The notes under the pieces were generated by a model. It ran no database searches. It saw only the letters and a list, made by a program, of their open reading frames with translations, and had not been told where the DNA came from. A program made the translations under genes and the position numbers. From an uncultured Rhodospirillales bacterium (GTDB taxonomy: Bacteria > Pseudomonadota > Alphaproteobacteria > Azospirillales > Azospirillaceae), in the NCBI GenBank assembly GCA_903920145.1, contig CAIXKV010000265.1, positions 1 through 50,928 of the forward strand: a stretch of DNA of 50,928 bases, written 5' to 3'. Positions within the stretch are counted from its first letter, which is position 1; each line of letters opens with the position of its first letter. Of this stretch, positions 16,520 to 49,285 are shown piece after piece.

Positions 16520-16603
16520 GGCCGATCCTCACCTCGGGCGACGGGCGGAAGTTGACCTCTGGGCCATGCGGCGGCATGGTCAAACACTGCCAATGACCAG
16601 GAT

Positions 16604-17233
16604 GTGTTCCCAACATGCCGCCGACTGCCGACCAACCACGTCGCGGATATCGATAAGCTCAAGGCCCGGATTCAGGGGTTGCGCGCGAAGACCATCGAGA
16701 ACGGCTGCACCGAGGAGGAGGCGCTGTCAGCCGCCGCGAAGGTGGCGGAGCTGCTCGACACCTACGATCTGTCCATGACGGATGTCGAACTGCGCCAGGA
16801 GGTATGCGAGCGCGCGGAGTTCGAGACCCAGAAGAAGCAAAGCCTTCCCCTGGACGCCTGCATCCCCGCAATCGCCGAGTTCGCCGACTGCAAGGTATGG
16901 CGCATGAAGAACCCCGACGGTGCATTCAGGTTCGTGTTTTTCGGCATGAAGCATGGCCTCGTCCATCGCCGCCAACCTGCGGCTCATGAAGGCCCAACGC
17001 AACGAAGCCCACAAGGCGACCGGGCGCGATCTGGTGCTGGTCAAGGCCGCCGTGATCGAGGACGAGCTGGCCAAGCTCGGGATGAATTTCTCGACCCGCC
17101 GCAAAGGCCGTCGCTTGGTCGCCAAGGATGCGTTCGATGCGGGGCATGCCGCAGGACAGAGAAGGTCTCCATCAACCCCGGCGTGGAACATGAGGGTGGT
17201 GCCTCGTTTAGCAAGCTCGGTGTCGCGCGATGA
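16604..17233 (+). pseudogene. DUF2786/DUF7168 protein, deleted and frameshifted
   Basis: The first 100 codons or so (from GTG 16604) match DUF2786: IDKLKARIQGLRAKTIENGC, a helix AAAKVAELLDTYDLS, then CKVWRMKNPDGAFRFVFFG. The family's expected middle of roughly 60 residues is missing. The C-terminal part continues in another frame from about 16953 (MASSIAANLRLMKAQRNEAH, ATGRDLVLVKAAVIEDELAK). The final motif KVSINPGVEHEGG is back in the first frame from about 17155. An internal deletion and a second indel therefore inactivated it. DUF2786 genes are common on plasmids and phages, with unknown function. Its end overlaps the convergent oxidoreductase gene by 26 bases, marking the edge of the ape cluster. 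Confidence 0.8.
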
Positions 17234-18803
17234 CTGGCCCCGCTTGTGGCGGCAAAACGGCATTAGCCGCCAAAGTACCCGAAACCGCGACCGCCTCGAT
17301 ACCGGCGCCGGTCGTCGTTCCCGCCCCGACCAACAGTAGTCCCGGGAGCGGGCTGTGAAGGTGTGGACAGGATTGATCGCGCGCCATCCCGTAGATTGTT
17401 CCGCCACGGGTACGGACGTAGCGCGCGAACGTTTCGGGGGTCGCCACATCGCACTGCAAGATGTGGCGCCGCAAATCTGGCAGGACGGAGTCTATGGTTG
17501 CGTCTATCATCTGCGCGGCGAAGGCGTTCTTCCGCTCACGATAATCCCGGGCGCCACGCCGCCAAAGGGCACCCTCACCTTCGGGAAGCAGGCGCAGCAT
17601 GGTCAGGGCGGCCGCACCCTCGGGCGCCAGCGAGGTATCTATGGCGCTGGGATTTCCTATGCCGAAATCAAAGCCGTCTCGGCTTACAAAAATGCGAGCC
17701 GGCAGATCCGGAACGGTATCGAGCGCGAGGCTCAGCAGCATGGCCGTCGGCCCTCGCCGGAGCGACCCGATCCAGTCCAGATAGGACGGCGGCAGAATGC
17801 TGCGGTCCAGCAGGTCGGTCAGCATCGCAACCACATCGCCATTGGCCACCACCAACCCGGCCCGGGACCCTTTGCCACCGACGCAGCGCACCCCGACGAC
17901 CCGCTCTCCCTCGGTCAGAATAGCCTCAACGGTGGATTTGAAGGTGATTTGGCCACCCCGTTCCAGGATGACCCGGGCCAGCACCTCGGCTAAACGCTGC
18001 GCGCCACCGGCCGGGTAATAGCCGCCGTCGAAATAGTAGCCATAGAGCGGTGCCATATCTTCGACCGACAAAAGTTCGGGTTGTTCGGTCAAATACTCAG
18101 AGAGGGTCGTCAGCAGATGCTTCAGGTTGGGATCGGTCAGATAGCTATCAAGCATGACCGCAAAGGGTTGTTTCATCCATCGCCAAGCGTGGGGATGGCG
18201 CCCGGGCCAGGCCATGAGTTCGGTCGGGTCGGTGGGCGCCATGGGCACGCCGCCCGTGGTTTCCACATCGGTGTACATCTCGCGGTAGACCGCCTCAATC
18301 TCGTGAAAAAATGCGATGATCGCCGTCGTCTCGGCAGGAAACAGGCGACCCAGCGCTTGTGGAATGTCCTCGCCCCGAGCCGGAACGTCGAAGGTCAGGC
18401 CATCGCGCCAGTAACGATGGTGAACGCGCCGCCAGTCGATGGCCGCCTCGGCGCCAAGTTGCCGGAGCAGGTTGCGCAAAGGTCCCCGTGGTCCTAGGCC
18501 GCTGAAATCCTGCACGCCGGCATCGAAGGTGAACTTCCGGACGCCCTGCGGAAGCCGGACTTTGCGTATCCATGATGAACAGAAGCCACCGGGACGATCA
18601 TGGGCTTCGAAGACGGCAACCTTGAGCCCGCGCTGAGCCAAGAGCGCGCCCGCGGTAAGTCCGCCGATGCCCGCGCCGATGATCACGACGTGGTGATGGT
18701 CGTCGTCGCTCGGCCAGGGACCGAATGCCGGGATATCCCAGGCCCGCGCGTTCCTGGCTCGCCCCGCTCGTGCCGCCCGGGCGGCGGTGGCGGTCAGTCC
18801 CAT
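17208..18803 (-). CDS. CrtI-family FAD oxidoreductase coupled to the ape operon
   Basis: A 531-aa flavoprotein. After a 36-residue extension comes the dinucleotide-binding motif VVIIGAGIGGLTAGALLAQR, and the FAD-contacting E in VFEAHDRPGG. The C-terminus carries the family's GLLLVGAGTTTGAGIEAVAVSG motif. It belongs to the phytoene desaturase/carotene isomerase/retinol saturase superfamily. The ATG at 18803 overlaps the apeR stop by 10 bases, so it is expressed as the last gene of the ape operon. It is not one of the standard ApeA-R functions. By family it could desaturate or isomerise the polyene, or reduce it; this is inference. The overlap with the pseudogene at 17208-17233 is convergent. 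Confidence 0.82.
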   Translation of the reverse strand: MGLTATAARAARAGRARNARAWDIPAFGPWPSDDDHHHVVIIGAGIGGLTAGALLAQRGLKVAVFEAHDRPGGFCSSWIRKVRLPQGVRKFTFDAGVQDFSGLGPRGPLRNLLRQLGAEAAIDWRRVHHRYWRDGLTFDVPARGEDIPQALGRLFPAETTAIIAFFHEIEAVYREMYTDVETTGGVPMAPTDPTELMAWPGRHPHAWRWMKQPFAVMLDSYLTDPNLKHLLTTLSEYLTEQPELLSVEDMAPLYGYYFDGGYYPAGGAQRLAEVLARVILERGGQITFKSTVEAILTEGERVVGVRCVGGKGSRAGLVVANGDVVAMLTDLLDRSILPPSYLDWIGSLRRGPTAMLLSLALDTVPDLPARIFVSRDGFDFGIGNPSAIDTSLAPEGAAALTMLRLLPEGEGALWRRGARDYRERKNAFAAQMIDATIDSVLPDLRRHILQCDVATPETFARYVRTRGGTIYGMARDQSCPHLHSPLPGLLLVGAGTTTGAGIEAVAVSGTLAANAVLPPQAGPVIARHRAC

Positions 18804-20020
18804 TTCCGGAACAGGAGGGACGTGTTGATGCCGCCAAAGGCAAAATTGTTGGACATCAGGTGTCGAACCTCGATGCGGCGTCCCTGGCCCATGACATAAT
18901 CCAGTGCGCCGCAGCGCTCGTCGACCACATCCAGGTTGGCGGTGGGTGCGAACCAGCTATCCTTCATCATCTCGATGCCCAACCAGGCCTCGAGGGCACC
19001 GCACGCGCCCAGGGAGTGGCCGAAATAGCTCTTGAGGGAATGGATCGGCACGTGTCGGCCCAGCACCGCCTGGGTGGCGGTGGTTTCGGCGATGTCTCCC
19101 CACTCGGTCGCCGTGCCATGCCCCGATACGAAGCCGATATCGTCGGGGGCAAGCCCGGCATCGTCCAGCGCCAGACGGAGCGCCCGCTCCATGGTCTCCG
19201 CCTGGGGCTGGGTGACGTGGGCGCCATCCGAATTGGTGCCGAAGCCGACGATCTCGGCATGGATACGGGCGCCGCGGGCGCGGGCGTGTCCCAGTTCCTC
19301 CAGCACCAGAGTGGCCGCGCCCTCGCCGATGACCAGACCGTCACGGTCACGGTCATAGGGGCGCGGCGTCGTCCCGGGCCGGTCATTGCGCTGGCTGGTG
19401 GCGTAGAGGGTATCGAAGACCGCCGAATCGGTGATGTCCAACTCCTCGGCGCCCCCCGCGAGCATGACATCGGCCCGGTTGAAGCGGATCGCTTCGTAGG
19501 CATAGCCGATGCCCTGGCTGCCCGAGGTGCAGGCGCTGGAGGTGGGAATGATGCGGCCGGAGACACCGAAGAACAGGCCGATATTGACCGGCGCGGTATG
19601 GCTCATCATCCGGATGTAGTTGGTGGCGTTGAGGTTCCGTGATTCCCCGTGCATCTTAAGCTCGTAGAACCCAAGCACGGAATCGGGACTGCCGAACGAC
19701 GAGCCGTAGGCAACGCCGGTGCGTCCGCCGCGCACCAGCGGGTCGTCGAGCAGGCCGGCGTCAGCAAGCGCCCGCTCGGTGGCGTACACCGCCATCTTGG
19801 AAACGGCGCCCATGCTGCGCAGCTTCTTGCGGGGGTAACGATCCTCGACGGAAAAGGAGGGCACAGGGGCGCCCAGCCTGGTGTTGACGCCTGTAAAGCG
19901 CTCCCATTCGCTCATGTAGCGCACGCCGGTCTGGCCCGCCGCGAAGGCGGCGCGGATGACCGGCCAGTCCTCGCCGAGCGCCGTCACCCCGCCCATCCCG
20001 GTCACCACCACCCTGCGCAT
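18794..20020 (-). CDS. apeR: Ketosynthase ApeR
   Basis: A 408-aa beta-ketoacyl-ACP synthase of the FabF/KAS-II type. The catalytic Cys lies in SSACTSGSQ (about residue 160) and the two His in GHGTATEWGD (about 295) and SYFGHSLGACG (about 330), so it should be a condensing enzyme and not a chain-length factor. It belongs to the type II polyketide-like set that extends the aryl polyene chain with malonyl units. The ATG at 20020 overlaps the apeQ stop as ATGA. Which of apeO and apeR does most extension cannot be read from sequence. Confidence 0.9.
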   Translation of the reverse strand: MRRVVVTGMGGVTALGEDWPVIRAAFAAGQTGVRYMSEWERFTGVNTRLGAPVPSFSVEDRYPRKKLRSMGAVSKMAVYATERALADAGLLDDPLVRGGRTGVAYGSSFGSPDSVLGFYELKMHGESRNLNATNYIRMMSHTAPVNIGLFFGVSGRIIPTSSACTSGSQGIGYAYEAIRFNRADVMLAGGAEELDITDSAVFDTLYATSQRNDRPGTTPRPYDRDRDGLVIGEGAATLVLEELGHARARGARIHAEIVGFGTNSDGAHVTQPQAETMERALRLALDDAGLAPDDIGFVSGHGTATEWGDIAETTATQAVLGRHVPIHSLKSYFGHSLGACGALEAWLGIEMMKDSWFAPTANLDVVDERCGALDYVMGQGRRIEVRHLMSNNFAFGGINTSLLFRKWD

Positions 20021-20751
20021 CAGATCATGCCTCCGTTGACCGAAATCACCTGCCGGGTGATGTACGACGCCTCGTCCGAGCACAGGAATGCCACCAGCCC
20101 CGCCACCTCCTCTGGGCGTCCGGCCCGCCGCATGGGGATGGCCTTGGCCACCTCCTCCATGGGCAGGTCGGCGGTCATTTGCGTCTCGATGACGCCGGGG
20201 GCCACGCAATTGACGGTGATGGCGCGCTTGGCCAGCTCGATCGCCAGCGACTTGGTCGCGCCGATGATGCCGGCCTTGGCCGCCGAATAATTGACCTGCC
20301 CGCGGTTGCCCACCAGTCCCGATACCGAGGACAGGGTGACGATCCTTCCGCCCCGGCGGGCCGAAACCATCGGCATCACGATGGGGCGCAGCACGTTGTA
20401 GAAGCCGTCGAGATTGGTGCGGAGCACCAAGTCCCAGTCGTCGTCCGCCATGGCGGGAAAGGCGGTATCGCGGGCGATGCCGGCATTCAGGACGACGCCG
20501 AAATAGACGCCGTGCTCGGCCATGTCTGCCTCAATGGCGGCGAGGCAGCCCGGGCGGTCTGAAATGTTAAAGGACAGCAGGCGCCCGTTTCCGCCCGCCT
20601 CGCCGATGGCCGCCAGGGTCCCAGTGGCCCCGTCGCGGTCAGAGCCGTAATGGACAGCTACCCGAAAATCGGCGCGTGCCAACCGCCGGGCGATGGCTCG
20701 CCCGATGCCCTTGCTGGCACCGGTGACCAGAATTGTCCTGTCGTCACCCAT
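20020..20751 (-). CDS. apeQ: 3-ketoacyl-ACP reductase ApeQ (FabG-like)
   Basis: A 243-aa short-chain dehydrogenase. It has the NADP-binding TGASKGIGRAIA at residues 10-21, NAGIARD near 90, the catalytic Ser in LSSVSG near 140 and YSAAK near 152. It reduces the 3-keto group after each extension, before dehydration. It starts at ATG 20751, 50 bases after the DUF4156 gene, and ends overlapping apeR. The length and active site are typical of FabG. Confidence 0.92.
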   Translation of the reverse strand: MGDDRTILVTGASKGIGRAIARRLARADFRVAVHYGSDRDGATGTLAAIGEAGGNGRLLSFNISDRPGCLAAIEADMAEHGVYFGVVLNAGIARDTAFPAMADDDWDLVLRTNLDGFYNVLRPIVMPMVSARRGGRIVTLSSVSGLVGNRGQVNYSAAKAGIIGATKSLAIELAKRAITVNCVAPGVIETQMTADLPMEEVAKAIPMRRAGRPEEVAGLVAFLCSDEASYITRQVISVNGGMI

Positions 20752-20801
20752 ATGGGCCGCTCCCCCGATAGCTGCGCGATGGTTTCCGATGCCGTCTCTG
20801 G

Positions 20802-21140
20802 TTAGGGTGCGTCAGGCGCCTTGTAGGCTTCGCCGCGCACGTTTTCGGAGAAGGTCCAATATGACGCCTTTTTGTCTGGCATCAGCACATGGGTGGCCCC
20901 CATTGCCGCGGCCTTATCCAGCACTTCGTTGACGGCGTTCTCCATCCCCTGATGCCGCATGACGCCGGTCATTGCAGAAGAGCCGACCACCTGTCCGAGG
21001 AAGGTGTAGCCCTTCACCTCCTCCGTGGAATGGACGATGCGGACCTTCGCAGCCCGATCCGACAGCGGGGTCGCACAGGCCGCGAGCACCAAGGCCGCAG
21101 CGAAAGCCACTGCGGCATATGTCGTTTTGAAATTCCTCAT
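20802..21140 (-). CDS. DUF4156-type lipoprotein inside the ape operon
   Basis: A 112-aa protein with a signal peptide and lipobox: a basic start MRNFKTTYAAVAFAAALVL followed by AACATP, where Cys would be lipidated. The mature part contains the DUF4156-like pattern KVRIVHS, GYTFLGQVVGSSAM, then NAVNEVLDKAAAMGATHVLM. This suggests an outer-membrane or periplasmic lipoprotein. It lies between apeP and apeQ with gaps of 36 and 50 bases on its two sides, while nearly all other ape genes overlap or nearly touch, so it may be a later insertion. Its role in pigment export or anchoring is not known. Confidence 0.8.
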   Translation of the reverse strand: MRNFKTTYAAVAFAAALVLAACATPLSDRAAKVRIVHSTEEVKGYTFLGQVVGSSAMTGVMRHQGMENAVNEVLDKAAAMGATHVLMPDKKASYWTFSENVRGEAYKAPDAP

Positions 21141-21176
21141 CGTCTGCTCCGGTCTTGTAGCCATTCCGTCATGTCG

Positions 21177-21641
21177 TCACCCTTCCACCCGCCTGGCAAG
21201 CACGGCGGTCGCGTCGGCGGGCTGATAGACGGTCAACTGCGCTCGGGCGACCGTGGTTCCGTCCAGATCGATCCGGCAGTCGAAGGCGCCCATCTCGCCG
21301 TCGAGGTAGAGCTTGGCTGCCCGAACCGTCAGGTGGTTGCCCGCCATGAAGCGCGCGACCGAGGACGTGAACATCCGCGTGCCCAAGAGGAATCCCAACG
21401 CCGGGGGGCGTCCCTCGGCCAGCGAACCCAGGCCGGCAAAGGCGCCGCAGGCCTGGGCCATCAGTTCGATACCCACATGGCAGGGCACACCGCCCGCGGC
21501 GGGATCGAAGAAGGGATGGTCGGCGGCGATGGTCGTCTCCACCAGGATCCAGTCCTCGCCGTGTTCCAGGACCCGGTCGAGCAGCAGCATGGGCGGCGCG
21601 TGGGGCAAGAGAGTCGCGAGGGGCGGAAAGGCCGGCGTCAT
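21177..21641 (-). CDS. apeP: Dehydratase ApeP (FabA/FabZ-like hotdog)
   Basis: A 154-aa hotdog-fold protein related to 3-hydroxyacyl-ACP dehydratases (LLPHAPPMLLLDRVLE at residues 12-27, HVGIELMAQACGAFAGL near 55-71). It should remove water from the 3-hydroxy intermediate to leave the conjugated double bond, probably working with ApeI. The first His lies in the family's HxPPM region, and Glu59 in GIELMAQ is the usual acid. ATGA overlap with apeO couples it to the operon. Confidence 0.9.
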   Translation of the reverse strand: MTPAFPPLATLLPHAPPMLLLDRVLEHGEDWILVETTIAADHPFFDPAAGGVPCHVGIELMAQACGAFAGLGSLAEGRPPALGFLLGTRMFTSSVARFMAGNHLTVRAAKLYLDGEMGAFDCRIDLDGTTVARAQLTVYQPADATAVLARRVEG

Positions 21642-22879
21642 GACGATCCCCCCCGTCCAAGCACCAGCACCATGTTGTTGCCGCCAAAAGCGAAGGAATT
21701 GGACAGCATGGCCAGCGGCCCGCTCCCGGGAACGGTGGCTCCCGGTTCAGTCAGGGCCAGCCTGGGCAAGGCGGCGTCCGGAACCCCGTCCCACAGATGG
21801 GGCGGCAGCAGGCCCGATGGGTTGAATTCCGGATGCAGGGCCAGCCAGAGGAAGGCCGCCTCGCAGGCCCCCGCCGCGCCCAGCAGGTGGCCGGTCATGG
21901 CTTTGGTCGAGCTGCACGGCGTTTCGGGGCCAAAGACCGCCGCCACCGCCCGGCTCTCCATGGCGTCGTTGAGGGCGGTCGCCGTACCATGGAGGTTGAC
22001 ATAGGCAATGTCGCCCGCGCCCAGTCCGGCGTCCGCCAGGGCCAGGCGCATCGCGGTTTCGGCACCCCGTCCCGTCGGGTCGGGTGCGCTGACATGATGG
22101 GCGTCCGAGCCTTCGCCGATGCCCAGCAGCATGACCGGGGCCAGGTCGCGGACCAGCACGAAGGCCGCGGCGCCCTCGCCGATGGTGATGCCGTCGCGGT
22201 TAGCGCTGAACGGATTGCAGGGGCGGGCCGAGACCGCCTCCAGAGACCGGAAACCGCCCAGGGTCATCCGGCACAGGCTGTCGGCACCGCCGACCACCGC
22301 GGCGTCGCAGAGGCCCAGCGCGATCAGCCGCCGGGCCGACGCGAACGACTTGGCGCCCGAGGAGCAGGCGGTGGCCACGGTATAAGCGGGACCGGTCAGG
22401 CCGAACATCCTGGCGGCAAAGTCGGCGAGGTTTCCCGTCTCCTGCTGGCGGTAGCGATAACCGGGCGGCCAGGCGCCATCCTGCCGGAAAGACGCCCATG
22501 CCGCCTCGCCCTCGGCGATGCCCGCGGTGCTGGTGCCGAGAACCACCGCAACCCGGTCGCGGCCGTAACGGTCGGCGACCGCGCTCACGTCGTCGGAGAT
22601 CTCCTGCAGGGCCGCCAGCATCAGGCGGTTGTTCCGGCAGTCATAGTCCGAGAGATGGTCCGGAATCTCGGGAAGCGCGCCCTCCACCCGGCCTACCGGC
22701 ACGGTCATGCCGGCGATCAGCCGATCGTCGGGAATCGGGATAGGGGGCACCTCACGGTGTTCCCCCTCCCACACCAAACCCGCGCGCGAGCCCGCGAACA
22801 GGGACGCCGCGGTTGCCGCCTTGCCGCGCCCCAGGGGTGTCACCAGCCCGATGGCGGGAATTCCCAGCGATGCGCTCAT
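21638..22879 (-). CDS. apeO: Ketosynthase ApeO
   Basis: A 413-aa KAS-type condensing enzyme. The catalytic Cys is in ACSSGAKSFA (about residue 168) and the two His are in NLHGTATALND (about 300) and TGHLLGAAGACE (about 336). It is the main partner of ApeC, which lacks these residues. It starts at ATG 22879 overlapping the apeN stop (ATGA) and overlaps apeP at its end in the same way. It builds the aryl polyene chain by repeated two-carbon extension. Confidence 0.92.
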   Translation of the reverse strand: MSASLGIPAIGLVTPLGRGKAATAASLFAGSRAGLVWEGEHREVPPIPIPDDRLIAGMTVPVGRVEGALPEIPDHLSDYDCRNNRLMLAALQEISDDVSAVADRYGRDRVAVVLGTSTAGIAEGEAAWASFRQDGAWPPGYRYRQQETGNLADFAARMFGLTGPAYTVATACSSGAKSFASARRLIALGLCDAAVVGGADSLCRMTLGGFRSLEAVSARPCNPFSANRDGITIGEGAAAFVLVRDLAPVMLLGIGEGSDAHHVSAPDPTGRGAETAMRLALADAGLGAGDIAYVNLHGTATALNDAMESRAVAAVFGPETPCSSTKAMTGHLLGAAGACEAAFLWLALHPEFNPSGLLPPHLWDGVPDAALPRLALTEPGATVPGSGPLAMLSNSFAFGGNNMVLVLGRGGSS

Positions 22880-23478
22880 GGAGCGGTCTCCCCGGACTGG
22901 ACATCGATGTCGTAGCCCCAGGCGAGGTTCCGCAGTTTCATCCGCCCCGACCAGCTTCCGGCCTGGGCGGTGCCATAGTCGATGCGGACCACCTCGGTAC
23001 CGTCGGCTCTCCGGACGATCCGCGAGCCCGGCGCCGTCACCAGCGTGGCGCCGGTCAAGGCCCCGCGAACCGCCGCTTCGGGCCAGTACATCATGACGAT
23101 ATCGGCCAGCATGTTGCCCGGCCGCGTGGTGTCGGGCAGCCAGGGCGCGGCTTCGGCCACCACCCCGCCGGCGGTCCAGGTGACGGTCAGTGCGCGCCGC
23201 CCCATGGTGTCGAGGCCGACCAGGAGGAAGCGGTCAGGCGTGACGCCGATATGCCCCTCGAAGACGAAAGTGGTGTCCCGGTAATGCGCGGTGACCAGTT
23301 GCGTGGCTTCGACGGTCCGGCCCAACGCCGCAGGCGCAGGCAAGGTCAGCGTCACCCCCTGGGCGATGGCGATGGTGCGCGCCGAGGCCGGCAGGTCGGT
23401 TGCGGAGGCGCACCCGCTGAGCATCAGGATGGCGGGCAGAAGGAAGGAGCGCTGCCTTCCGGTCAGGGGCGGCGGCAT
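22876..23478 (-). CDS. apeN: DUF3261 lipoprotein ApeN
   Basis: A 200-aa protein with a signal peptide and lipobox ILMLSGCAS near residue 20, so the mature protein is a lipid-anchored periplasmic or outer-membrane protein of the DUF3261 family found in APE clusters. Its job is thought to be localisation or transport of the polyene lipid; the mechanism is not known. The ATG at 23478 lies inside the end of apeM (16-base overlap). Confidence 0.85.
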   Translation of the reverse strand: MPPPLTGRQRSFLLPAILMLSGCASATDLPASARTIAIAQGVTLTLPAPAALGRTVEATQLVTAHYRDTTFVFEGHIGVTPDRFLLVGLDTMGRRALTVTWTAGGVVAEAAPWLPDTTRPGNMLADIVMMYWPEAAVRGALTGATLVTAPGSRIVRRADGTEVVRIDYGTAQAGSWSGRMKLRNLAWGYDIDVQSGETAP

Positions 23479-26823: not shown

Positions 26824-28475
26824 GCCCAGAAGTCGAAGAAGTTGAACCACTGAAGCGGTGCCTTCAGGCAGTAATGCTCCAGCCGGCCGGCAAACTTGGC
26901 GGCCCAACCGTGGAGCGCCACCTCGCGCTCCCGCCTGGGTAACACGATGCGATCGGCGAGCGTCTCTGCGTACACGCGGTGGACATGGCCTTCCCGCAGG
27001 CAGAACAGCAGGTAGACCGGGCATTCGAGCAGGGCCGCCAGGATGTAAGGCCCCTGGGAGAAGGATGCCTCGGCGCCCAGGAAGGGCACGCGCGACACCC
27101 GCCGCCCGCCGCCCACCGGCGTCCGGTCGCCGACCACCACCACCCATTCTCCCCGGTCCACCCGTTCCTTCAGCTCGATGGCGGTTTCGGGTCCGAGTTC
27201 CGTGACCTGACGGGTGTTGACGGCGGCCTCGGGACAGAATTCCCCGAGCACGCGGTTGTAGTGCTCGGCGTGGCGGGTGTGAACCAGCACCGTGATGCGG
27301 GCGCGGGTTCTGGCATCAAGCAGCGCCCGCGACAGTTCGGCGTTGCCCAGGTGCGAGGCGATGAAGAGCGCGCCCCGGCCATCGGCTGCGGCGACATCGA
27401 AGAGCCCACCGTCGGCACGGACCATCGCGCCCGCCGGCATGCCCCCGGTCCAGGCGATGAAGGTGTCGAGCGCGCGGGCTGCGAAGCTGAGAAAGTGGCG
27501 ATAGCCATCAAGCAGGGTCGGGCGACCGGGCGTGTTCGACTGCCGCCGGACCCGCTCCAGGAAGGCCAGGGACGCGCGGCGCCGTTCGGCGCCGGTCAGA
27601 TAGAAATAAAGGACGATGGGCGCCATCACCAGGAGGCAGCCCCGACGACCAAACAGCCAGTATGCCCCGGAACAGAACCGCAGCCCCCAATAGAGCCCCC
27701 GTTCCGCCATGGCGGCCCAGTGGCGGCTCGGCTCCCGCGACCGGGACCTTGAGCGCAGAATCTCGGGCAGCCGGAAAGGCATGCTCAGCACCAGACGCGT
27801 GTGCATGAGGGTGATGCGCCAGTTGTCCCGCAGCATGTGGAAGTTGGAGCTGTTGCCGGGCGGATAGGTCACGCGTACCGGAACCATGATGACGGGAGTG
27901 CCCCGCCAGAACAGCCGGACCATGATTTCGGTGTCGAAGTCCATGCGGCGCCCGAGCCGCTCCCGGGCCAGAAGAGCCATGGTTGCCGCCATGGGATAGA
28001 CCCTGAAGCCGCACATGCTGTCGGGGATGGCCATGGACAGCGTTTCGATCCACACCCAGACATGGGTGATCCAGCGGCCGATCTTCCGCCCCCGGGGGAT
28101 GCTGTGGTCATAGAGCGGCCTGCCCGAGACGAGAGCCTCCGGGGACTGCGCCGCCGCCTCCAGCAACAGGGGCAATGCATCAAGGTCGTGCTGTCCATCG
28201 GCATCGACCTGGACCGCGTGGGTGAAGCCTGCCGCAGCGGCCAGTTCGAACCCGGCCATCACCGCGCCCCCCTTACCCTGGTTGACCTCCAGGCGCCGCC
28301 AGACCACGCCCCGCTCCGGGTCGTGCAATGCGGCCAGCACCGAACGTGCGGGCTCCCCGCTGCCATCGTCCACCACGAACACCGGCAGCCCCGCGCCCTG
28401 GAGACGGGCGACCACATCGCCAACAGCAGAGCAGTGATTGTGGCTGGGCACGATGGCGCAGGGACGGAAGCTCAT
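26820..28475 (-). CDS. apeJ: Fused glycosyltransferase/acyltransferase ApeJ
   Basis: A 551-aa two-domain protein. Residues about 1-240 are a family 2 glycosyltransferase, with VFVVDDGSGE near 31, VDADGQHD near 91 (the metal-binding acids) and a late R/W motif. Residues about 250-551 are an LpxL/HtrB-like lauroyl-type acyltransferase with IASHLGNAELSR (H-x4-E) near 370. Such a fusion is a hallmark of APE clusters and probably assembles the lipid or sugar anchor of the polyene. The C-terminus carries membrane-associated segments. It overlaps apeI and apeK by 4 bases each. Confidence 0.92.
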   Translation of the reverse strand: MSFRPCAIVPSHNHCSAVGDVVARLQGAGLPVFVVDDGSGEPARSVLAALHDPERGVVWRRLEVNQGKGGAVMAGFELAAAAGFTHAVQVDADGQHDLDALPLLLEAAAQSPEALVSGRPLYDHSIPRGRKIGRWITHVWVWIETLSMAIPDSMCGFRVYPMAATMALLARERLGRRMDFDTEIMVRLFWRGTPVIMVPVRVTYPPGNSSNFHMLRDNWRITLMHTRLVLSMPFRLPEILRSRSRSREPSRHWAAMAERGLYWGLRFCSGAYWLFGRRGCLLVMAPIVLYFYLTGAERRRASLAFLERVRRQSNTPGRPTLLDGYRHFLSFAARALDTFIAWTGGMPAGAMVRADGGLFDVAAADGRGALFIASHLGNAELSRALLDARTRARITVLVHTRHAEHYNRVLGEFCPEAAVNTRQVTELGPETAIELKERVDRGEWVVVVGDRTPVGGGRRVSRVPFLGAEASFSQGPYILAALLECPVYLLFCLREGHVHRVYAETLADRIVLPRREREVALHGWAAKFAGRLEHYCLKAPLQWFNFFDFWA

Positions 28476-28831
28476 GTTTCCCCCACCGATACGCTGCCCG
28501 ACGACATCACCTCGTCTCCTGCGCGGTATTCGAAAAGCAGGCGGCCCTTCGCGGCCTCCCGGCGCAGAACCAGCGTCACCGGGCTGTCGGGGGCAATGAC
28601 CCGGCGGAACTTGACCCGGAAGGTCCTGGCGATTCCACCAGTCAGAGACAGGTGACGGTCAGCCAAGCGCACCGCCCAGTCTATTTGGGCTACGCCGGGC
28701 AGAACCCCGACCCCGGGGAAGTGACCCTGAAACTGGAGAAGCTCCGCCGAGAGGAACAAGTCCAGTTCGACACCATCGGTGACTGGGCGCACGGCCAGGA
28801 CCTGCGGGTCGCGCGGGGGGGCAGCGGTCAT
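28472..28831 (-). CDS. apeI: 3-hydroxyacyl-ACP dehydratase ApeI
   Basis: A 119-aa hotdog protein. The FabZ-like active site FQGHFPGVGVLPGVAQID (residues 34-51) has the catalytic His. It should dehydrate the 3-hydroxyacyl-ACP, with ApeP, giving a conjugated trans double bond. It overlaps apeH and apeJ by 4 bases each (ATGA). Confidence 0.9.
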   Translation of the reverse strand: MTAAPPRDPQVLAVRPVTDGVELDLFLSAELLQFQGHFPGVGVLPGVAQIDWAVRLADRHLSLTGGIARTFRVKFRRVIAPDSPVTLVLRREAAKGRLLFEYRAGDEVMSSGSVSVGET

Positions 28832-30177
28832 GACCTTTGGGCCTCCATGCCCGGCCCGAACAGGGCGCCCACGTCTCCGTCCCGTCTCTTTCCCATGGCA
28901 TCGACCGGCAGAGCGTTTGGGAAACGCCAGCGGCGTGGCATCGCGGTGGGTTCTCCCGAAGCCGATAGCGCGCGGCGCAAGACCCGCCCAAAGCGGAATG
29001 GTCCAAGGGAGGCCAACTCGGCACGCCCCTCCTCGGTCAGGAGGACGGCGGCACCCAGCACGGCAGGCTCTCCGGGCAGGGCCACCACGGCCGCAGCGGC
29101 CACCTGGGGCAGGGAGCCAAGTTGCCGTTCGACCTCGGGAAGGCTAACGCGTTTTCCCTCGACCTTGACCACCCGGTCGGCCCGGCCGAGCAGGCGGAAA
29201 CCATCGGGAGTTGGCCGGGCAACGTCCCCGGTCTCATACCAGCCGTCTTCGGCCAGGAAGGGCGAGCGAACCCGAACGGTGCCCCCGGACGCTATCTCCA
29301 GGACGACTCCGGGAAAGGGGCGCCAGGGCCGCTCCTCCCCGTCGCAGCGCCGATTGGCGATCACCCCGGTCTCGGAACTGCCAAATATCTCGGTCACGGC
29401 TATCCCTAGCACCGAGGCTGCCTCACGCGCAGCGGCCGCCGTCAGCGGCGCGCCCGCCGAGAGCACCATGCGGGGGCGGCGTTCCATTGGCAGTTCCGGA
29501 AGTCCCGAAATCCGGCCCAGGTGCGACGGGCCGGTGACGAGGACTGCGCCCGCGGGCAGCTCGGCCGCCACCTCCTCCCAAAGACCATGGGTCCGGCGGG
29601 CAAAGGGATGCCCCGCCGACAGCGGCCACAGCACCTTGAAGGTGAGGCCGTAGACATGGTGGTGCGGCACGGTCGCAAGCACCGGCACACCTTCCTGTCC
29701 GAAACCCCAGAGTTCGTCCAGGACCGCAATCTCTCGTTCGAGCATAAGTAGCGGCTTGGTGACGCGCTTGGGTTCGCCGGTCGAACCGGAGGTGAAGAAG
29801 TCAATCAGGGTCCGGCGCGGGTCGAGGGGCTGAAGGGGGCCGGCTGCGGCCTCTTTGGAGGGCAGAATACGGAACGGGGTTTCGTCGCCGTCGCCGACCA
29901 CACACGGAGACAGGTCCGACGTCTCTGGTCGGGCGATGGCGGACAACATGGGGCAGGCGCCCGCATGCAGCAGCGCGAACAGCCCGACAGCCAGATGGTA
30001 GGTATCGCCACACGCTAGTGTTGCCCGCTTGCATCCGGCCGCGGCGAGGCGTGCGGCGTTGGCCGCCACATCCGCCCGGAAGCGTGCGAAGGGGACCACA
30101 CTCTCCCCGTTCCACGCAACAAGCCGATCACCCCCCCCATGGTCGGAGAGCAGGCGTGAAAGTGGTATGGCGGTCAC
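28828..30177 (-). CDS. apeH: Aryl acid-ACP ligase ApeH (AMP-forming)
   Basis: A 449-aa AMP-dependent synthetase/ligase. It has the ATP-binding loop FFTSGSTGEPKRVTK near 125-139, FGSSETG near 266 and the acid/Lys motif YETGDV...LLGRADRVVKVEGKRV near 318-345. The C-terminal AMGKRR has the family's last Lys. In APE pathways this enzyme loads 4-hydroxybenzoate (or a related aryl acid) on the ACP as starter. It has a GTG start at 30177 overlapping apeG. No gene in this window makes 4-hydroxybenzoate, so the substrate must come from the host. Confidence 0.92.
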   Translation of the reverse strand: MTAIPLSRLLSDHGGGDRLVAWNGESVVPFARFRADVAANAARLAAAGCKRATLACGDTYHLAVGLFALLHAGACPMLSAIARPETSDLSPCVVGDGDETPFRILPSKEAAAGPLQPLDPRRTLIDFFTSGSTGEPKRVTKPLLMLEREIAVLDELWGFGQEGVPVLATVPHHHVYGLTFKVLWPLSAGHPFARRTHGLWEEVAAELPAGAVLVTGPSHLGRISGLPELPMERRPRMVLSAGAPLTAAAAREAASVLGIAVTEIFGSSETGVIANRRCDGEERPWRPFPGVVLEIASGGTVRVRSPFLAEDGWYETGDVARPTPDGFRLLGRADRVVKVEGKRVSLPEVERQLGSLPQVAAAAVVALPGEPAVLGAAVLLTEEGRAELASLGPFRFGRVLRRALSASGEPTAMPRRWRFPNALPVDAMGKRRDGDVGALFGPGMEAQRS

Positions 30178-30755
30178 GATTCACCCCGCCGCCGGAGAAG
30201 TATCCGACGCACAAGAAATTCGCCCGCAAACAGCGCGCCCATCAGAAGATAAGCGATGAGGCCGGTCCACAGCGCCCAGGCCTCGGGCGTCCCCCAGAGA
30301 GCAAGTCCGGCGGCCACGGCGGCGTTCGCCACCAGGAACAGGGTCCAGACCAAAGTGACGGCACGGCAGTAGCCCACGCCGTCATTCGGGAAGTTCGGGT
30401 CGGTCAGGCGGGCCAGACGCTCGACCAGACTGGGCGGCCGTAACAGGGAGTGCCCGAAAAGCACGGCCATGCCCAGACCAAGCAAAACCGGATAGGCCAG
30501 CACCGCCAAGGTCTGGTCCACCGATGCCAGGAAGGCCAACCCGGCCGCCACCGCCAGGAGCGGTGCTCGCCACACGCGCGCCGCCTCGTTCCCGAGGGTC
30601 AGCAGGCGTGCCCCGATGAGCGCCAGGGCGAAGGCGACCATGACCAGCGGCGGCAGCCGTTGCAGGCCAACGTAGACGACCAGGGGGTAAAGCAGACTCG
30701 CTGTCACCACCCCTGCTGACAGGACGCGCGGAAGGCTATCCGACAAGCAATTCAT
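30174..30755 (-). CDS. apeG: Membrane protein ApeG (COG4648-type)
   Basis: A 193-aa integral membrane protein with about five to six hydrophobic segments, for example LLYPLVVYVGL near 25, PLVMVAFALALIGARLLTL near 40, VLAYPVLLGLGMAVLFGHSL near 85 and a last TM near 160-180. It matches the COG4648 membrane protein that sits before apeH in APE clusters. The function is unknown; a link to the ApeJ or ApeH steps at the membrane is possible. The ATG at 30755 is inside the end of apeF (20-base overlap). Confidence 0.82.
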   Translation of the reverse strand: MNCLSDSLPRVLSAGVVTASLLYPLVVYVGLQRLPPLVMVAFALALIGARLLTLGNEAARVWRAPLLAVAAGLAFLASVDQTLAVLAYPVLLGLGMAVLFGHSLLRPPSLVERLARLTDPNFPNDGVGYCRAVTLVWTLFLVANAAVAAGLALWGTPEAWALWTGLIAYLLMGALFAGEFLVRRILLRRRGES

Positions 30756-30984
30756 GAACGCGCTCGACCACGTCACCAACCGTGCGGACGGTCCGGAATT
30801 GTTCGGGCCTTATCTTCTTTCCGGAAATTTCCTGCATCTTGGTAACCAGATCGACGGCGTCAATGCTGTCCAAATCCAGATCTTCGAACAGCCTGGCATC
30901 AAGGACGATTTTATCGGGAGGAACCTCGAACATCTCTTCAAGGTATCCTCGCAGCTTCTCGAAGATGTCTTCCTGGGAAAGCAT
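30736..30984 (-). CDS. apeF: Acyl carrier protein ApeF
   Basis: An 82-aa acyl carrier protein. The phosphopantetheine Ser is in DLDLDSIDAVDLV (about residue 40), and the flanking helices are acidic as in FAS-type ACPs. It is the second ACP of the pair (ApeE/ApeF) that carries the growing chain. The ATG at 30984 has GGAG about 10 bases upstream and lies 4 bases past the apeE stop. It needs activation by the phosphopantetheinyl transferase encoded at 33209. Confidence 0.92.
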   Translation of the reverse strand: MLSQEDIFEKLRGYLEEMFEVPPDKIVLDARLFEDLDLDSIDAVDLVTKMQEISGKKIRPEQFRTVRTVGDVVERVHELLVG

Positions 30985-30988
30985 GGGG

Positions 30989-31252
30989 CTACTCCGCGCG
31001 CTGGGCCGCAATGAATCGCGCCAAACTCCGGACGCTGTAAAAATGCTCTCTGATCTCATCCGTAACCGATTCGATCTTGATGCCATAAGTCTTGCGCAGC
31101 GCCACTCCAAGTTCCAGGGCATCAATGGAATCAAGGCCGAGCCCTTCGCTACCAAACAATGGCTCGTCGGAGCCGATCTCATCTGGCGTCAAGTCTTCCA
31201 GATTCAAGGCAACAACAATTAGACGCTTCAGGCCCAGTTCAAGCTCATCCAT
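30989..31252 (-). CDS. apeE: Acyl carrier protein ApeE
   Basis: An 87-aa acyl carrier protein. The modification site is GLGLDSIDALEL (Ser about residue 40). The start at ATG 31252 overlaps the apeD stop by 8 bases; a longer frame to 31315 is not needed. ApeE and ApeF probably carry different stages (starter versus elongation). Confidence 0.92.
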   Translation of the reverse strand: MDELELGLKRLIVVALNLEDLTPDEIGSDEPLFGSEGLGLDSIDALELGVALRKTYGIKIESVTDEIREHFYSVRSLARFIAAQRAE

Positions 31253-32021
31253 TGTTCTTTGCCAATCTGTCAGAGTAACGTTCTTCGATGCAAGCCACCA
31301 GTCTGCGTGCCCCAATCGAGCGGTACGGATAGCTCAAATAATCACTTGCTTCAAGGGCGCCCATGTCCGCCACTCTGAATGTGGGACGACGGTCGGGAAT
31401 GCGCCACCAGGGCTCGCCCTTCACCAACGTTACGGGGTTGCAGGTAATTAACACCATCCGGATTTCTGTCCCGGTGAGCATAGCCAGATTCGCAAAGCCA
31501 CGATGGAACCTGCCGATCTCGCCCTGATGGGACCGGGTTCCTTCTGGAAACACTAAGAGATTGCTGCCGCTCGCGAGCGCCTCGGAGCAGGCGCGCGCCA
31601 TGGCATCAGAAGGGAGATCATTACGAATGTACCCAGCCGACTTTACCACGCCGCTGAGAAACGGGTTCTCCCACAACTGATGCTTGACGATGCAGCGGAG
31701 ATGGGGATTCAACGACATCAGGAGCACGACATCAAGCAAAGTCGGATGATTGGCCACGATGATGCTGCCTCGGCAGGCGGGAATGCCCCCGATCGCCGAG
31801 ACATCAAGGTCGATGATGCGCGAATGGCGCAACAACAGGATGTAGAGGCGGAAGCTCCAGTGGACGACATGTTGGGTCCGCCGGATACGGTCCCCCGTGT
31901 TGCCCGAAATCAGGGCGATGACCGGAAACACCGTGGCCGCCAGGACCATTCCGCCCAAACCGAGGGAGGCGAAGGCCAATCCGGTCCCAACCAGGCGCCG
32001 AAGGCGGTCAAGAAGCCCCAT
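31245..32021 (-). CDS. apeD: PlsC-type acyltransferase ApeD
   Basis: A 258-aa acyltransferase of the LPLAT/PlsC family. The catalytic NHPTLLD (H-x4-D) is near residue 89 and FPEGTRSHQG near 160; an N-terminal membrane-anchoring helix covers residues 12-38. In APE systems it is thought to help attach the polyene acyl chain to its lipid anchor. I chose ATG 32021; it overlaps apeC by 14 bases. Confidence 0.9.
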   Translation of the reverse strand: MGLLDRLRRLVGTGLAFASLGLGGMVLAATVFPVIALISGNTGDRIRRTQHVVHWSFRLYILLLRHSRIIDLDVSAIGGIPACRGSIIVANHPTLLDVVLLMSLNPHLRCIVKHQLWENPFLSGVVKSAGYIRNDLPSDAMARACSEALASGSNLLVFPEGTRSHQGEIGRFHRGFANLAMLTGTEIRMVLITCNPVTLVKGEPWWRIPDRRPTFRVADMGALEASDYLSYPYRSIGARRLVACIEERYSDRLAKNNG

Positions 32022-32703
32022 CGGCTCGCCCCCACCGCCATTCCATGCGCTCGCCGATCGCCCCCCCAGCACGAATATCGCCTTGGAGGAACGAAAGGAA
32101 TTCCAGGGCAAGGCTGTCGCAGACCGGTGCGCGCTCCTTCTTGGGTGCCCAGTCGAACGTCACGTCGTTGCGGCCCCCGGCGGGACTGGTCAGGTACAAG
32201 GCCATGGCCAGGGGCGCTTCCTGCGCCCCGTCGACGGCGTCCCAGGGCGGGGGAAGGGGTTCGTCGAAATGCACCAGCGCCATCGGCTGCCCGGGACGCT
32301 CGGTCGCCGCGGCGGCCGCCTCCAGAAGACCGTACGCGAAACTTTCTCTGCCCGCGGCCACAGCGGTATGCCCAAGACGGTTCCCGGTCGCGATCGACAG
32401 CAACCCGATCAGCCCATGATGCACCGACAGACTGAAATCCGCCGGCGACAGAGGCTCGCCATCGGCCAAGGCCGACAGCAGTGCCTGGGTCCGCCCAAAC
32501 TCCCCGTGCCGGGAGGACAGGACGAAACGGGATGCACCGACATCGGGCAAGCCGAACGCCGCAAGCAGCGCCTCCCGCCCCAGCGGCGATACCCGTCTCT
32601 TCAGGATGGTCGGAGCGTCAGGGGGAGCCCAGTTGCCCCCCCTGCTCTTCGCCGACGGCGACCACGCCATCCAATGGGGGATAGAAAAAACAAGAGAGGC
32701 CAT
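32008..32703 (-). CDS. apeC: Ketosynthase-like chain-length factor ApeC
   Basis: A 231-aa protein of the Ketoacyl-synt_2 group. It keeps the N-terminal ketosynthase shape (LGREALLAAFGL and FVLSSRHGEFGRTQALLSAL, then FSLSVHHGLIGLLS) but has no catalytic Cys triad, so it should act as a heterodimer partner of ApeO that influences chain length. It starts 7 bases after the stop of the upstream lipoprotein gene. ATG 32703 is my choice; 32721 is also in frame. Confidence 0.88.
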   Translation of the reverse strand: MASLVFSIPHWMAWSPSAKSRGGNWAPPDAPTILKRRVSPLGREALLAAFGLPDVGASRFVLSSRHGEFGRTQALLSALADGEPLSPADFSLSVHHGLIGLLSIATGNRLGHTAVAAGRESFAYGLLEAAAAATERPGQPMALVHFDEPLPPPWDAVDGAQEAPLAMALYLTSPAGGRNDVTFDWAPKKERAPVCDSLALEFLSFLQGDIRAGGAIGERMEWRWGRADGAS

Positions 32704-32710
32704 GGACCGC

Positions 32711-33106
32711 TCAATGGGCATGCAGATACAAGCGCCTGTCAATCTCGCTCTGGAGCGCACGCACCTCCTCGTTATACTTTTTATGGATATTGCCGTTCTC
32801 TTCCTTCAGGTTGACCGAGGAGTCCAGCTTGATGCTGTAGGTCTTCTGGGTATAAAACACGCTGGATACTGCCGAGTGGTCCTTCCACTTCAGCGTCACG
32901 CGCACTTCGCCTGGCCCCGCCTCGTCCGCATGCCAACCCTTGTCGAGTGCTGCCTGGATGATGGCATCCTTGACCTGGGCCAGCGTCATGGGCTTGGCTG
33001 CTTGGGGGATTCTGCTGTCCTCGACGTTGTAGATCGGTTGCTCGCGGTGACAGCCGACCAGACATGTGACCGCGAATACGACGAGCAATAGCGGCAATCT
33101 CGGCAT
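32711..33106 (-). CDS. Lipoprotein heading the ape operon (ApeA position)
   Basis: A 131-aa protein with a signal peptide and lipobox: MPRLPLLLVVFAVTCLVGCH, where the second Cys follows LVG. The mature part is small and charged, ending in a helical coil (KKYNEEVRALQSEIDRRL). It is the first gene of the minus-strand operon, with AAGGA about 10 bases before the ATG, and sits 102 bases from the divergent phosphopantetheinyl transferase gene. A lipoprotein of unknown role begins several APE clusters; identity with ApeA is by position only. Confidence 0.75.
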   Translation of the reverse strand: MPRLPLLLVVFAVTCLVGCHREQPIYNVEDSRIPQAAKPMTLAQVKDAIIQAALDKGWHADEAGPGEVRVTLKWKDHSAVSSVFYTQKTYSIKLDSSVNLKEENGNIHKKYNEEVRALQSEIDRRLYLHAH

Positions 33107-33208
33107 GGTATGCGTCCTTCGATGGCGTTATCACGAAAGGGTCCGAACAAACCTTGGATATCCGTGGCAGTGCGGCTACCCTTACCATGAACCCACTGGC
33201 AAGCGAGC
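33107..33208. promoter_or_regulatory. Divergent promoter region of the ape cluster
   Basis: The 102 bases between the lipoprotein gene (minus) and the phosphopantetheinyl transferase gene (plus) should carry both promoters. No consensus boxes or regulator gene for the cluster are evident, so expression would rely on host or constitutive signals. Confidence 0.5.
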
Positions 33209-33880
33209 ATGATTCTGTACTCAGTAACCTCATTGGATGACGAGATGTTTATTTTCCTCGGTGGTCGTGGGACGCGCGCGCCTGCGGCATCAGTCGGCAC
33301 TCCGGGGAGCCCGACTCGTCTTGCATCGTGTGGCGCTTACGCTCTTCTCGGGGAACTTTTATTCCAGGCGACTGGCCTCCCTGCGCGCTACTGGCGAATT
33401 GGTAAGAATCGATGCGGGAAGCCACATGCCGTCACTCAGCATATCAACGGCCATTTCGATGTTTCCGTTTCCCACAGCGGCAGACTGATTGCCGCCGCCG
33501 TCAGTACCATCGGCCCGATCGGCATTGACGTGGAGTGTCGTCAGCCCGGTAGAGATGTTGTCGGCATGGCTGGCCTCGCCTTTGGCGAATCTGAGCGCTT
33601 AGAAGTCATCCGGAACGGAGAGGACGCGTTTTATCGGATTTGGACGCTTCGTGAGGCCATGGCAAAGGCTCTCGGAGTCGGCTACCCGTTGGTAGTCGAC
33701 GGGTGTGATCGGGTACCTCTGGACCCTGTTAATGGTAGCTGGGGCACGCTCGTGGATGGCCGGCGCTGGTTTTTCAGCCACAGTCGACCCGATGCAATGA
33801 CCCACATCGCTTTGGCTTGCCTTGCCCCTTCACAATATGTGTCCAGTCGCCCGAATTGCCCCCCCTCCTTCTATATCTGA
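33209..33880 (+). CDS. Sfp-type phosphopantetheinyl transferase
   Basis: A 223-aa protein with the Sfp/AcpT-type motifs: a basic mid-section (FDVSVSHSGRLIAAAVS, residues 83-99), the magnesium-binding GIDVE near 108 and WTLREAMAKALG near 147. It transfers the phosphopantetheine arm from coenzyme A to the ApeE and ApeF serines. It is divergent from the ape operon, about 100 bases away, and makes the cluster independent of the host's own transferase. The start at 33209 is preferred (an ATG at 33245 is also in frame). Its stop falls in an inverted repeat. Confidence 0.85.
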   Translation: MILYSVTSLDDEMFIFLGGRGTRAPAASVGTPGSPTRLASCGAYALLGELLFQATGLPARYWRIGKNRCGKPHAVTQHINGHFDVSVSHSGRLIAAAVSTIGPIGIDVECRQPGRDVVGMAGLAFGESERLEVIRNGEDAFYRIWTLREAMAKALGVGYPLVVDGCDRVPLDPVNGSWGTLVDGRRWFFSHSRPDAMTHIALACLAPSQYVSSRPNCPPSFYI

Positions 33881-33901
33881 TAATTGGCCTTTATCAGATA
33901 T
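33873..33901. terminator. 10-bp perfect inverted repeat at the transferase stop
   Basis: Arms ATATCTGATA (33873-33882) and TATCAGATAT (33892-33901) are perfect, with a 9-base loop. It overlaps the stop codon of the phosphopantetheinyl transferase and is AT-rich, so it could be a weak terminator or an operator for the toxin-antitoxin genes downstream. Confidence 0.5.
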
Positions 33902-33993
33902 TTAAAGCCGGCGTACGGGGCCGCCAGCACGGTTGAAAATCAGCACCTAACATGGCATCATGCTAAGTGTATAAGCATTGATCAGGAGGCCCG

Positions 33994-34236: not shown

Positions 34237-34239
34237 CGC

Positions 34240-34731: not shown

Positions 34732-34769
34732 ATGAATATGAAAATCGGTTCGCTGGATTAATGAGGTCG

Positions 34770-42774: not shown

Positions 42775-42787
42775 GACGGGTCGCCTT

Positions 42788-48873: not shown

Positions 48874-48913
48874 TGACAAGGCCTCTATACGCAGCCGACA
48901 GGCGTTGTTCGCC

Positions 48914-49267: not shown

Positions 49268-49285
49268 CGTGACCTCCTTCAACGT

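Follow-up and report, generated by a model that had tools for sequence, protein, structure and literature searches.

Can a plasmid of about 51 kb carry a whole operon for an aryl polyene (APE), a common yellow membrane pigment, and how did the operon come to lie there? The contig analyzed here (50,928 nucleotides in all, referred to below as the window) raises both questions. A sequence-only reading had described it as a small non-conjugative plasmid bearing a nearly self-contained APE cluster. We assign a probability of roughly 0.85 to the reading that it is a 50.8-kb circular plasmid from an environmental alphaproteobacterium and carries a complete APE operon, to which a pathway can be proposed and which probably changed replicon.

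A probably circular replicon with its own replication genes

The ends of the contig form an exact 141-nt repeat, positions 1 to 141 being identical to 50788-50928, which supports closure of the contig to a 50,787-bp circle. Two backbone genes were identified:

8457-9344, plus strand: Rep, plasmid replication initiator (HTH_36; PHROG replication initiation proteins)
10276-10977, plus strand: ParA, partition ATPase (CbiA/AAA_31)

Rep homologues occur in 46 of 72,556 PLSDB records, mainly from Azospirillum, Roseomonas and Skermanella, with identities of 32-38% among the 15 matches listed. Together, the terminal repeat, Rep and ParA are what one expects of a plasmid, and the contig is predicted to be one. 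A YhaV/PrlF toxin-antitoxin pair is also present. Pfam scans of the submitted window ORFs, which included part of those of 60-150 aa, revealed neither a relaxase nor a type IV secretion system, which would mark the plasmid as mobilizable or conjugative, in agreement with its description as non-conjugative.

The aryl polyene gene set

Pfam, NCBIfam and tblastn agree that 17208-33880 is an APE cluster, with the functions where the sequence-only reading had placed them. Nineteen genes lie on the minus strand, and a phosphopantetheinyl transferase (PPTase) gene lies beside them. Identities to G001 refer to the nearest cluster, from a species of the same genus.

32711-33106, minus: ApeA lipoprotein, at the head of the operon (homology; lipobox LVGC; no Pfam match)
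32008-32721, minus, start inferred: ApeC chain-length factor (PF13723, 150.9 bits)
31245-32021, minus, start inferred: ApeD lysophospholipid-type acyltransferase (PF01553, 63.2 bits; HPTLLD)
30989-31252, minus, start inferred: ApeE acyl carrier protein (PF00550, 32.6 bits; DSI)
30736-30984, minus, start inferred: ApeF acyl carrier protein (PF00550, 41.1 bits; DSI)
30174-30779, minus: ApeG membrane protein (position and homology; no Pfam or NCBIfam match)
28828-30177, minus: ApeH acyl-ACP synthetase, an AMP ligase (PF00501, 62.8 bits)
28472-28831, minus: ApeI dehydratase (PF22818, 46.7 bits, cut-off 28.5)
26820-28475, minus: ApeJ, GT2 glycosyltransferase plus lipid A-type acyltransferase (PF00535, PF03279)
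26401-26817, minus, start inferred: ApeK thioesterase (Pfam 4HBT_2, 47.3 bits; 81% in G001)
25775-26419, minus: ApeL, LolA-like carrier (PF19574 LolA_3, 49.4 bits)
23463-25778, minus: ApeM, RND/MMPL-type transporter (position and homology)
22876-23478, minus, start inferred: ApeN, DUF3261 LolB-like lipoprotein (Pfam DUF3261, 98.5 bits; lipobox LSGC)
21638-22879, minus: ApeO elongating ketosynthase (NF006618, 494.2 bits, cut-off 407; CSSG/HGT/KAMTGH)
21177-21641, minus: ApeP dehydratase (PF22817, 88.7 bits, cut-off 27)
20802-21164, minus: DUF4156 lipoprotein (Pfam DUF4156, 30.1 bits, cut-off 28.9; lipobox LAAC)
20020-20751, minus: ApeQ ketoreductase (Pfam adh_short_C2; TGxxxGIG and YSAAK motifs)
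18794-20020, minus: ApeR ketosynthase, start 20020 (NF006587, 673.1 bits, cut-off 470; CTSG/HGT/KSYFGH)
17208-18803, minus: FADox, CrtI-family flavin oxidoreductase, at the end of the operon (Pfam Amino_oxidase, NAD_binding_8)
33209-33880, plus: PPTase (PF01648 ACPS, 33.6 bits, cut-off 25; IDVE and WTLREAMAK motifs)

Fourteen of the 18 junctions between the minus-strand genes overlap, and the remaining four are gaps of 2-50 nt; the starts of ApeC (32721) and ApeN (23478) were set at the nearest in-frame ATGs, with which both junctions still overlap. The claim of one coupled operon with its own PPTase thus holds for the coupling, but the PPTase is outside the operon because it lies on the plus strand, divergent from the other genes. 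Similarly, the inventory of ApeC to ApeR was accurate but passed over ApeA, which lies within the same range.

The order (A, C, D, E, F, G, H, I, J, K, L, M, N, O, P, DUF4156, Q, R) is the canonical one. It follows, as had been expected, the E. coli A-R table in PMC8253772 with B missing, and 17 of the 18 genes of E. coli CFT073 are present in the same order and with the same pathway as predicted there. Relative to E. coli the cluster differs in its plasmid location, in lacking ApeB and in having a dedicated PPTase, transcribed divergently, as well as the DUF4156 lipoprotein and the CrtI-type flavoprotein.

The enzymes that define an APE cluster were all found: ApeR- and ApeO-type ketosynthases and the ApeC chain-length factor at the core; the ApeI and ApeP dehydratases, the ApeQ ketoreductase, the ApeH synthetase and two ACPs; and a LolA/RND/DUF3261 export set with the ApeD/ApeJ/ApeK attachment set, ApeM being assigned by position and homology. 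The best PDB matches of ApeO and ApeC are 6qsp_A (E 1.1e-99) and 6qsp_B (E 7e-15), respectively. ApeM has no Pfam match and scores below cut-off against the NCBIfam HpnN and HAE3 transporter models, but is 74% identical to its G001 counterpart and 53-55% identical to ApeM of A. rugosum, A. canadense and A. doebereinerae, with conserved order. ApeG is 64% identical in G001 and 35-59% in the other 16 clusters, at a conserved position, and ApeA is 56% identical to its G001 homologue and 31-46% to ApeA in 11 other clusters. Among the 17 clusters compared, the DUF4156 lipoprotein was matched only in that of G001 (67%).

Motif inspection found the signature residues in place across the cluster enzymes, including the key residues of the ketosynthase, AMP ligase (ApeH: TSGSTGEPK, YETGD and a C-terminal Lys) and ACP genes of the assembled sequence, and the reading frames are uninterrupted. 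An E. coli-type ApeB methyltransferase is absent: ApeA and ApeC overlap, leaving no space between them, and the only methylase that Pfam recognized in the scanned window ORFs is a DNA cytosine methylase. According to PMC8253772 head-group tailoring differs among genera, so that ApeB is not a defining gene. The plasmid gene set is complete and looks intact for an aryl polyene, production of which is predicted. It is also the only set we found in its genome, where a search for a second APE copy returned none: the window ApeR is the only close ApeR, and other ketosynthase matches are either 35-39% identical or ApeO.

Three gene calls were set aside. An alternative ApeP frame (21169-21687) and "orfX" (32781-33233) are in the wrong frame, and stand replaced by 21177-21641 and ApeA, respectively; a tRNA-Ile (tat) call at 22326-22417 was dismissed as spurious because it is located inside ApeO. 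Rfam gave no match at the gathering threshold.

Proposed pathway

Enzyme roles were assigned after those described for E. coli in PMC8253772. ApeH would load an aromatic acid, by analogy 4-hydroxybenzoate, onto an ACP that was likely primed by the divergent PPTase. Initiation would fall to ApeR, as in vitro work suggests by analogy; the polyene acid would then be built through extension by ApeO/ApeC, reduction by ApeQ and dehydration by ApeI/ApeP. Release of the polyene acid and its attachment to lipid are attributed to ApeK, ApeJ and ApeD, and transport to the outer membrane, where the pigment may quench oxidants, to ApeM, ApeL and ApeN. Since there is no ApeB, the ring should remain unmethylated. 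The role of ApeR here is uncertain, because an E. coli apeR deletion strain is described as still making the main APE lipid (PMC8253772).

Tailoring of the polyene is probably the function of the CrtI-type flavoprotein. The best PDB match of this protein is a phytoene dehydrogenase (4dgk, E 3.4e-15), and its score against TIGR02734 (crtI_fam) is 138.4 bits, under the family cut-off of 238.1; a limited literature search (titles and abstract openings) found no role assigned to such a protein in APE clusters. One could go further and propose that the intact cluster yields a distinct polyene, the flavoprotein and the DUF4156 lipoprotein changing the product or its anchoring. Five of the 17 other APE clusters (a palsa_911 MAG, G055, G052, G035 and A. 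doebereinerae) have retained an adjacent flavoprotein homologue close to full length (56-58% identity). This and the matches to carotenoid desaturase families are consistent with the proposal, but in G001 only a remnant of the flavoprotein survives though the rest is colinear, and it is therefore dispensable there. We regard a distinct product as possible but doubtful. The two clusters, one with an intact flavoprotein gene and the other with a remnant, form a natural experiment on this putative tailoring gene.

Starter supply and expression

No starter-supply gene was recognized among the scanned window ORFs, and two chorismate-lyase families, PF04345 (UbiC) and PF01947, had no match in the whole genome. 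For this reason "nearly self-contained" overstates the case. If no recognized source of 4-hydroxybenzoate means no source, the cluster could be starved or silent and its host without pigment. Upstream of ApeA no promoter-like site was found with the sigma-70 consensus, and terminator-like sites are in excess (19, versus 11.2, sd 3.7, in shuffles), several of them on the minus strand within the operon. Nevertheless, alphaproteobacterial promoters frequently deviate from consensus, and other routes to aromatic acids, such as XanB2-type chorismatases and ammonia lyases, fall outside the families searched. The uninterrupted frames and motifs point instead to maintained function, and we consider a silent or starved cluster unlikely.

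Plasmid carriage in other bacteria

The sequence-only reading considered carriage on a small non-conjugative plasmid notable. Plasmid carriage is rare: a protein search (E<=1e-60) found ApeR in 27 of 72,556 PLSDB records, so the cluster is not common on plasmids. Of these records, 22 are of 0.68 Mb or more and five are under 400 kb. A megablast search of PLSDB with the cluster gave nothing, and we rejected the idea that the same cluster occurs on a known plasmid at the DNA level. Carriage is nonetheless not new. Among the records under 400 kb, plasmids of Cedecea neteri (NZ_CP023526.1, 254 kb) and Moellerella wisconsensis (NZ_CP093256.1, 332 kb) likewise carry ApeA, ApeC to ApeR and a PPTase, but they are far larger than 51 kb and their ApeR is only 57-59% identical to that of the window; the Moellerella plasmid is also conjugative, and its cluster encodes a methyltransferase where ApeB would be. 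Most of an APE cluster (14 of 20 queries matched) lies on a 200-kb Acinetobacter junii plasmid, and PLSDB records a 15.7-kb circle of APE genes from Klebsiella. For an APE cluster, a plasmid of this size is an unusual location without being an unprecedented one. Among the papers listed in searches of the PMC literature, most of them judged by title and abstract opening, none described a plasmid-borne APE cluster, which does not prove that none has been published.

A probable change of replicon

The nearest cluster, in G001 (C81), lies on a chromosomal contig. Its ApeR is 88% identical in amino acid sequence and groups with that of the window with support of 100/100 in a tree of 34 rows (the window, 15 of 17 joined loci and 18 of 80 other loci; G042 and G032 were left out, having no ApeR long enough). 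The G001 cluster is colinear from ApeA through ApeC to ApeR, including DUF4156, at 55-88% amino acid identity; its PPTase, 50% identical, lies downstream on the same strand. A plasmid origin for it was rejected because the contig, among whose longer ORFs 10 were scanned, holds SMC, COX1 and tRNA-Arg. In a third species, G003, pieces of the plasmid backbone recur at 86-97% nucleotide identity, and ApeI has no match. Given the chromosomal counterpart in G001 and the backbone pieces without an ApeI match in G003, the cluster probably changed replicon within the genus. Taken with these two genomes, the 51-kb plasmid and its complete cluster would offer a concrete case of such a change.

The G003 backbone pieces also bear on another reading, in which the circle arose during assembly or by excision from the chromosome, the cluster's normal place. 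The genome is a 269-contig draft, and the Klebsiella circle, for which the incomplete gene table of PLSDB lists no replication gene, illustrates that such circles are recorded. However, Rep, ParA and a toxin-antitoxin pair are encoded on the circle studied here, Rep homologues sit on plasmids, and backbone pieces recur where ApeI has no match; an artefact or excised segment seems very improbable.

A move of the cluster between replicons need not be recent, since the host and the G001 species share 96% identity in the housekeeping protein FabF, as against 88% for ApeR and 50% for the PPTase. Nucleotide identities between host and G001 are similar in the flanks (69-80%) and in the cluster (66-75%), and vertical descent is therefore possible. 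A bolder scenario, to which we give little credence, is that the plasmid is a genus-level shuttle that acquires the whole pigment operon from the chromosome and gives it back, stabilized by toxin-antitoxin and a Druantia-type defence locus and preserving the flavoprotein, whose remnant in G001 would mark a loss, so that the product would differ from known aryl polyenes.

The nearest clusters of named organisms include those of Azospirillum and Magnetospirillum, so that the host may belong to an Azospirillaceae-like family. In A. rugosum, A. canadense and A. doebereinerae the order is the same and ApeR is 76-77% identical in amino acid sequence, but the PPTase has no match in the stretches compared. 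The A. doebereinerae cluster, which also has the flavoprotein, departs from this order in that ApeJ adjoins the flavoprotein rather than lying between ApeI and ApeK.

Cluster content and integrity

The aryl polyene (APE) cluster was delimited with Pfam, NCBIfam and tblastn. It is real, correctly named and well assembled; what is unusual is the replicon that carries it.

33106 down to 17208, minus strand: ApeA, C, D, E, F, G, H, I, J, K, L, M, N, O, P, DUF4156 lipoprotein, ApeQ, ApeR, CrtI-family flavoprotein
33209-33880, plus strand (opposite to the operon): phosphopantetheinyl transferase (PPTase)

The sequence-only reading had proposed ApeC-ApeR functions in the expected order, and families, tblastn and the E. 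coli gene table agree with it. Compared with that table, in PMC8253772, 17 of 18 genes are found here in the same order, and the methyltransferase ApeB alone is missing. ApeR and ApeO score far over curated NCBIfam cut-offs and ApeI and ApeP match dedicated Pfam models over cut-off, while ApeM has only sub-cut-off NCBIfam matches and ApeG has no family match in Pfam or NCBIfam. ApeC and ApeO find their best structural matches in the pair of chains that make up 6qsp, the Xenorhabdus ApeO:ApeC structure. The PPTase had been placed inside the operon, a claim that fails since its gene runs the opposite way. A tRNA-Ile (tat) called by ARAGORN (22326-22417, minus strand) falls inside the ApeO coding sequence and was judged spurious.

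Internal stops were absent from all 20 genes. Both ketosynthases keep the catalytic Cys/His/Lys motifs. Also present are Tyr-Lys in the ketoreductase, the signature motifs of the AMP ligase and the PPTase, the ApeI motif and the serine of each ACP. ApeC is without the ketosynthase Cys motif, as expected for a chain-length factor.

The 18 junctions among the 19 minus-strand genes comprise 14 overlaps and four gaps of 2-50 nt, a pattern consistent with a single operon. A consensus scan of 16500-34900, compared with shuffles, detected no promoter-like site upstream of ApeA; the two promoter-like sites observed (2.3 in shuffles) are both on the plus strand. Terminator-like sites numbered 19, versus 11.2 (sd 3.7) in shuffles, with several on the minus strand within the operon, and this excess does not favour a single unbroken transcript.

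Proposed pathway

By analogy with gene roles in PMC8253772, ApeH would load 4-hydroxybenzoate, ApeO/ApeC, ApeQ and ApeI/ApeP would extend the polyene, ApeK, ApeD and ApeJ would release and attach it, and ApeM, ApeL and ApeN would serve in export; the product may guard against oxidative stress. The same paper cites in vitro work on ApeR in initiation, and reports that the main APE lipid is still made after apeR deletion.

The host genome gave no match to UbiC (PF04345) or to the Rv2949c-like family (PF01947), which matched 1 and 3 of 14 control genomes, respectively; this weakens the description of the cluster as nearly self-contained. The flavoprotein is nearly full length beside five of the 17 other clusters compared and a remnant in one, some of these stretches being incomplete and absences therefore less sure. 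Its nearest named families are carotenoid desaturases, and our best guess is that it tailors the polyene.

The replicon

The window is a complete contig (C265) of a 4.26 Mb draft assembly of 269 contigs. The 141 bases at its start recur unchanged at its end, the pattern left by a circular molecule in k-mer assembly, indicating a circle of 50,787 bp. This end repeat, with Rep and ParA on the same contig, supports the proposed ~51-kb plasmid, and the finding of no relaxase or T4SS among the window ORFs scanned agrees with its description as non-conjugative.

Left of the cluster: strawberry-notch-type helicase; toprim/primase-like protein; Rep protein; ParA
12224-16519, plus strand: SNF2 helicase, 1431 aa, related to DpdE/ZorD, adjoining the APE operon at its 3' end
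34770-46545, minus strand, right of the cluster: Druantia type II-like defence locus
48403-49450, minus strand, right of the cluster: YhaV toxin and adjacent PrlF-type antitoxin ORF
Right of the cluster: resolvase

In the Druantia locus DruE2 scores 2168.7 bits, DruF2 414.5 and DruG2 a weak 65.4, and the cytosine methylase scores higher as DrmMII (309.3) than as DruM2 (237.2). The SNF2/DpdE-like gene (12281-16519) has copies at 79-81% nucleotide identity in two other genomes, G001 and G002. Rep homologues occur in 46 of 72,556 records of the plasmid database PLSDB, chiefly from Azospirillum, Roseomonas and Skermanella, with 32-38% identity among the 15 matches listed. The host genome holds two further Rep homologues (G000:C77:3477-4298 and G000:C133:18747-19700, 53-57%), one with an internal TAG, which may represent either further plasmids or remnants.

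Backbone pieces are found in a third species, G003: an 8.8-kb contig matches parts of 143-5822 and 7344-7579 at 86-97% nucleotide identity, and another contig matches 49789-50569 at 88%. The ApeI family search found no match in this genome (91% complete), from which the cluster is likely absent.

Other plasmids and secondary replicons

A tblastn search with ApeR found 27 of the 72,556 PLSDB records at E<=1e-60, so APE clusters are rare on plasmids. Twenty-two of these records are at least 0.68 Mb, sizes that we read as chromids or apparently mislabelled chromosomes, and five are below 400 kb. The five include two Moellerella plasmids (345 and 332 kb); gene content was examined for the latter and for the three records from other genera. 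A Cedecea plasmid (254 kb) and the 332-kb Moellerella plasmid, which is conjugative (MOBH), each have ApeA, C-R and a PPTase; in an unannotated A. junii plasmid record (200 kb), 14 of 20 queries match in order. A 15,708-bp Klebsiella pneumoniae circle labelled a plasmid (NZ_CP084827.1, L155) carries APE genes and a PPTase, has no replication gene listed in the PLSDB table, which is incomplete, and arose either by excision or during assembly. The view that APE clusters are mostly chromosomal is thus right, and to call a small plasmid carrier notable is fair, but plasmid carriage is not a new category. In two relatives the cluster lies on contigs (G020 C3, 1.15 Mb; G042 C2, 1.35 Mb) whose size suggests secondary replicons.

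The same-genus counterpart

Of 99 genomes searched for the ApeI family, 36 gave a match at E<=0.001 and 12, the host among them, exceeded the curated cut-off. Within the genus two of five genomes matched, the host and G001. The G001 cluster is colinear with that of the window, DUF4156 gene included, and its Ape and DUF4156 proteins are 55-88% identical in amino acids to their counterparts there; SMC, COX1 and tRNA-Arg on the G001 contig indicate that it is chromosomal. The two were paired in an ApeR tree of 34 rows (support 100/100). At the nucleotide level the two clusters are 66-75% identical and their upstream flanks 69-80%, and amino acid identity is 96% for FabF and 88% for ApeR, values compatible with a cluster either inherited or exchanged.

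The flavoprotein of G001 is a remnant after ApeR (L099:4867-5100, on its cluster) in which residues 57-110 are matched at 85%, closely followed by a C-terminus-like stretch in another frame. The PPTase lies downstream in G001 but divergently upstream in the window. Divergent upstream PPTase matches (39-44%, over part of the length) also occur in the palsa_911 MAG, the SV3-B17.1 MAG and a further genome, G095, so the plasmid layout looks older than that of G001, and it is unlikely that the cluster now in G001 gave rise to the one on the plasmid.

A dispersed repeat of ~80 bp lies between ApeK and ApeL of the G001 cluster (L098:17116-17202). It accounts for 43 of 50 matches listed in the host genome, of which 17 begin no more than 150 nt from the start of their contig, and probably breaks assembly.
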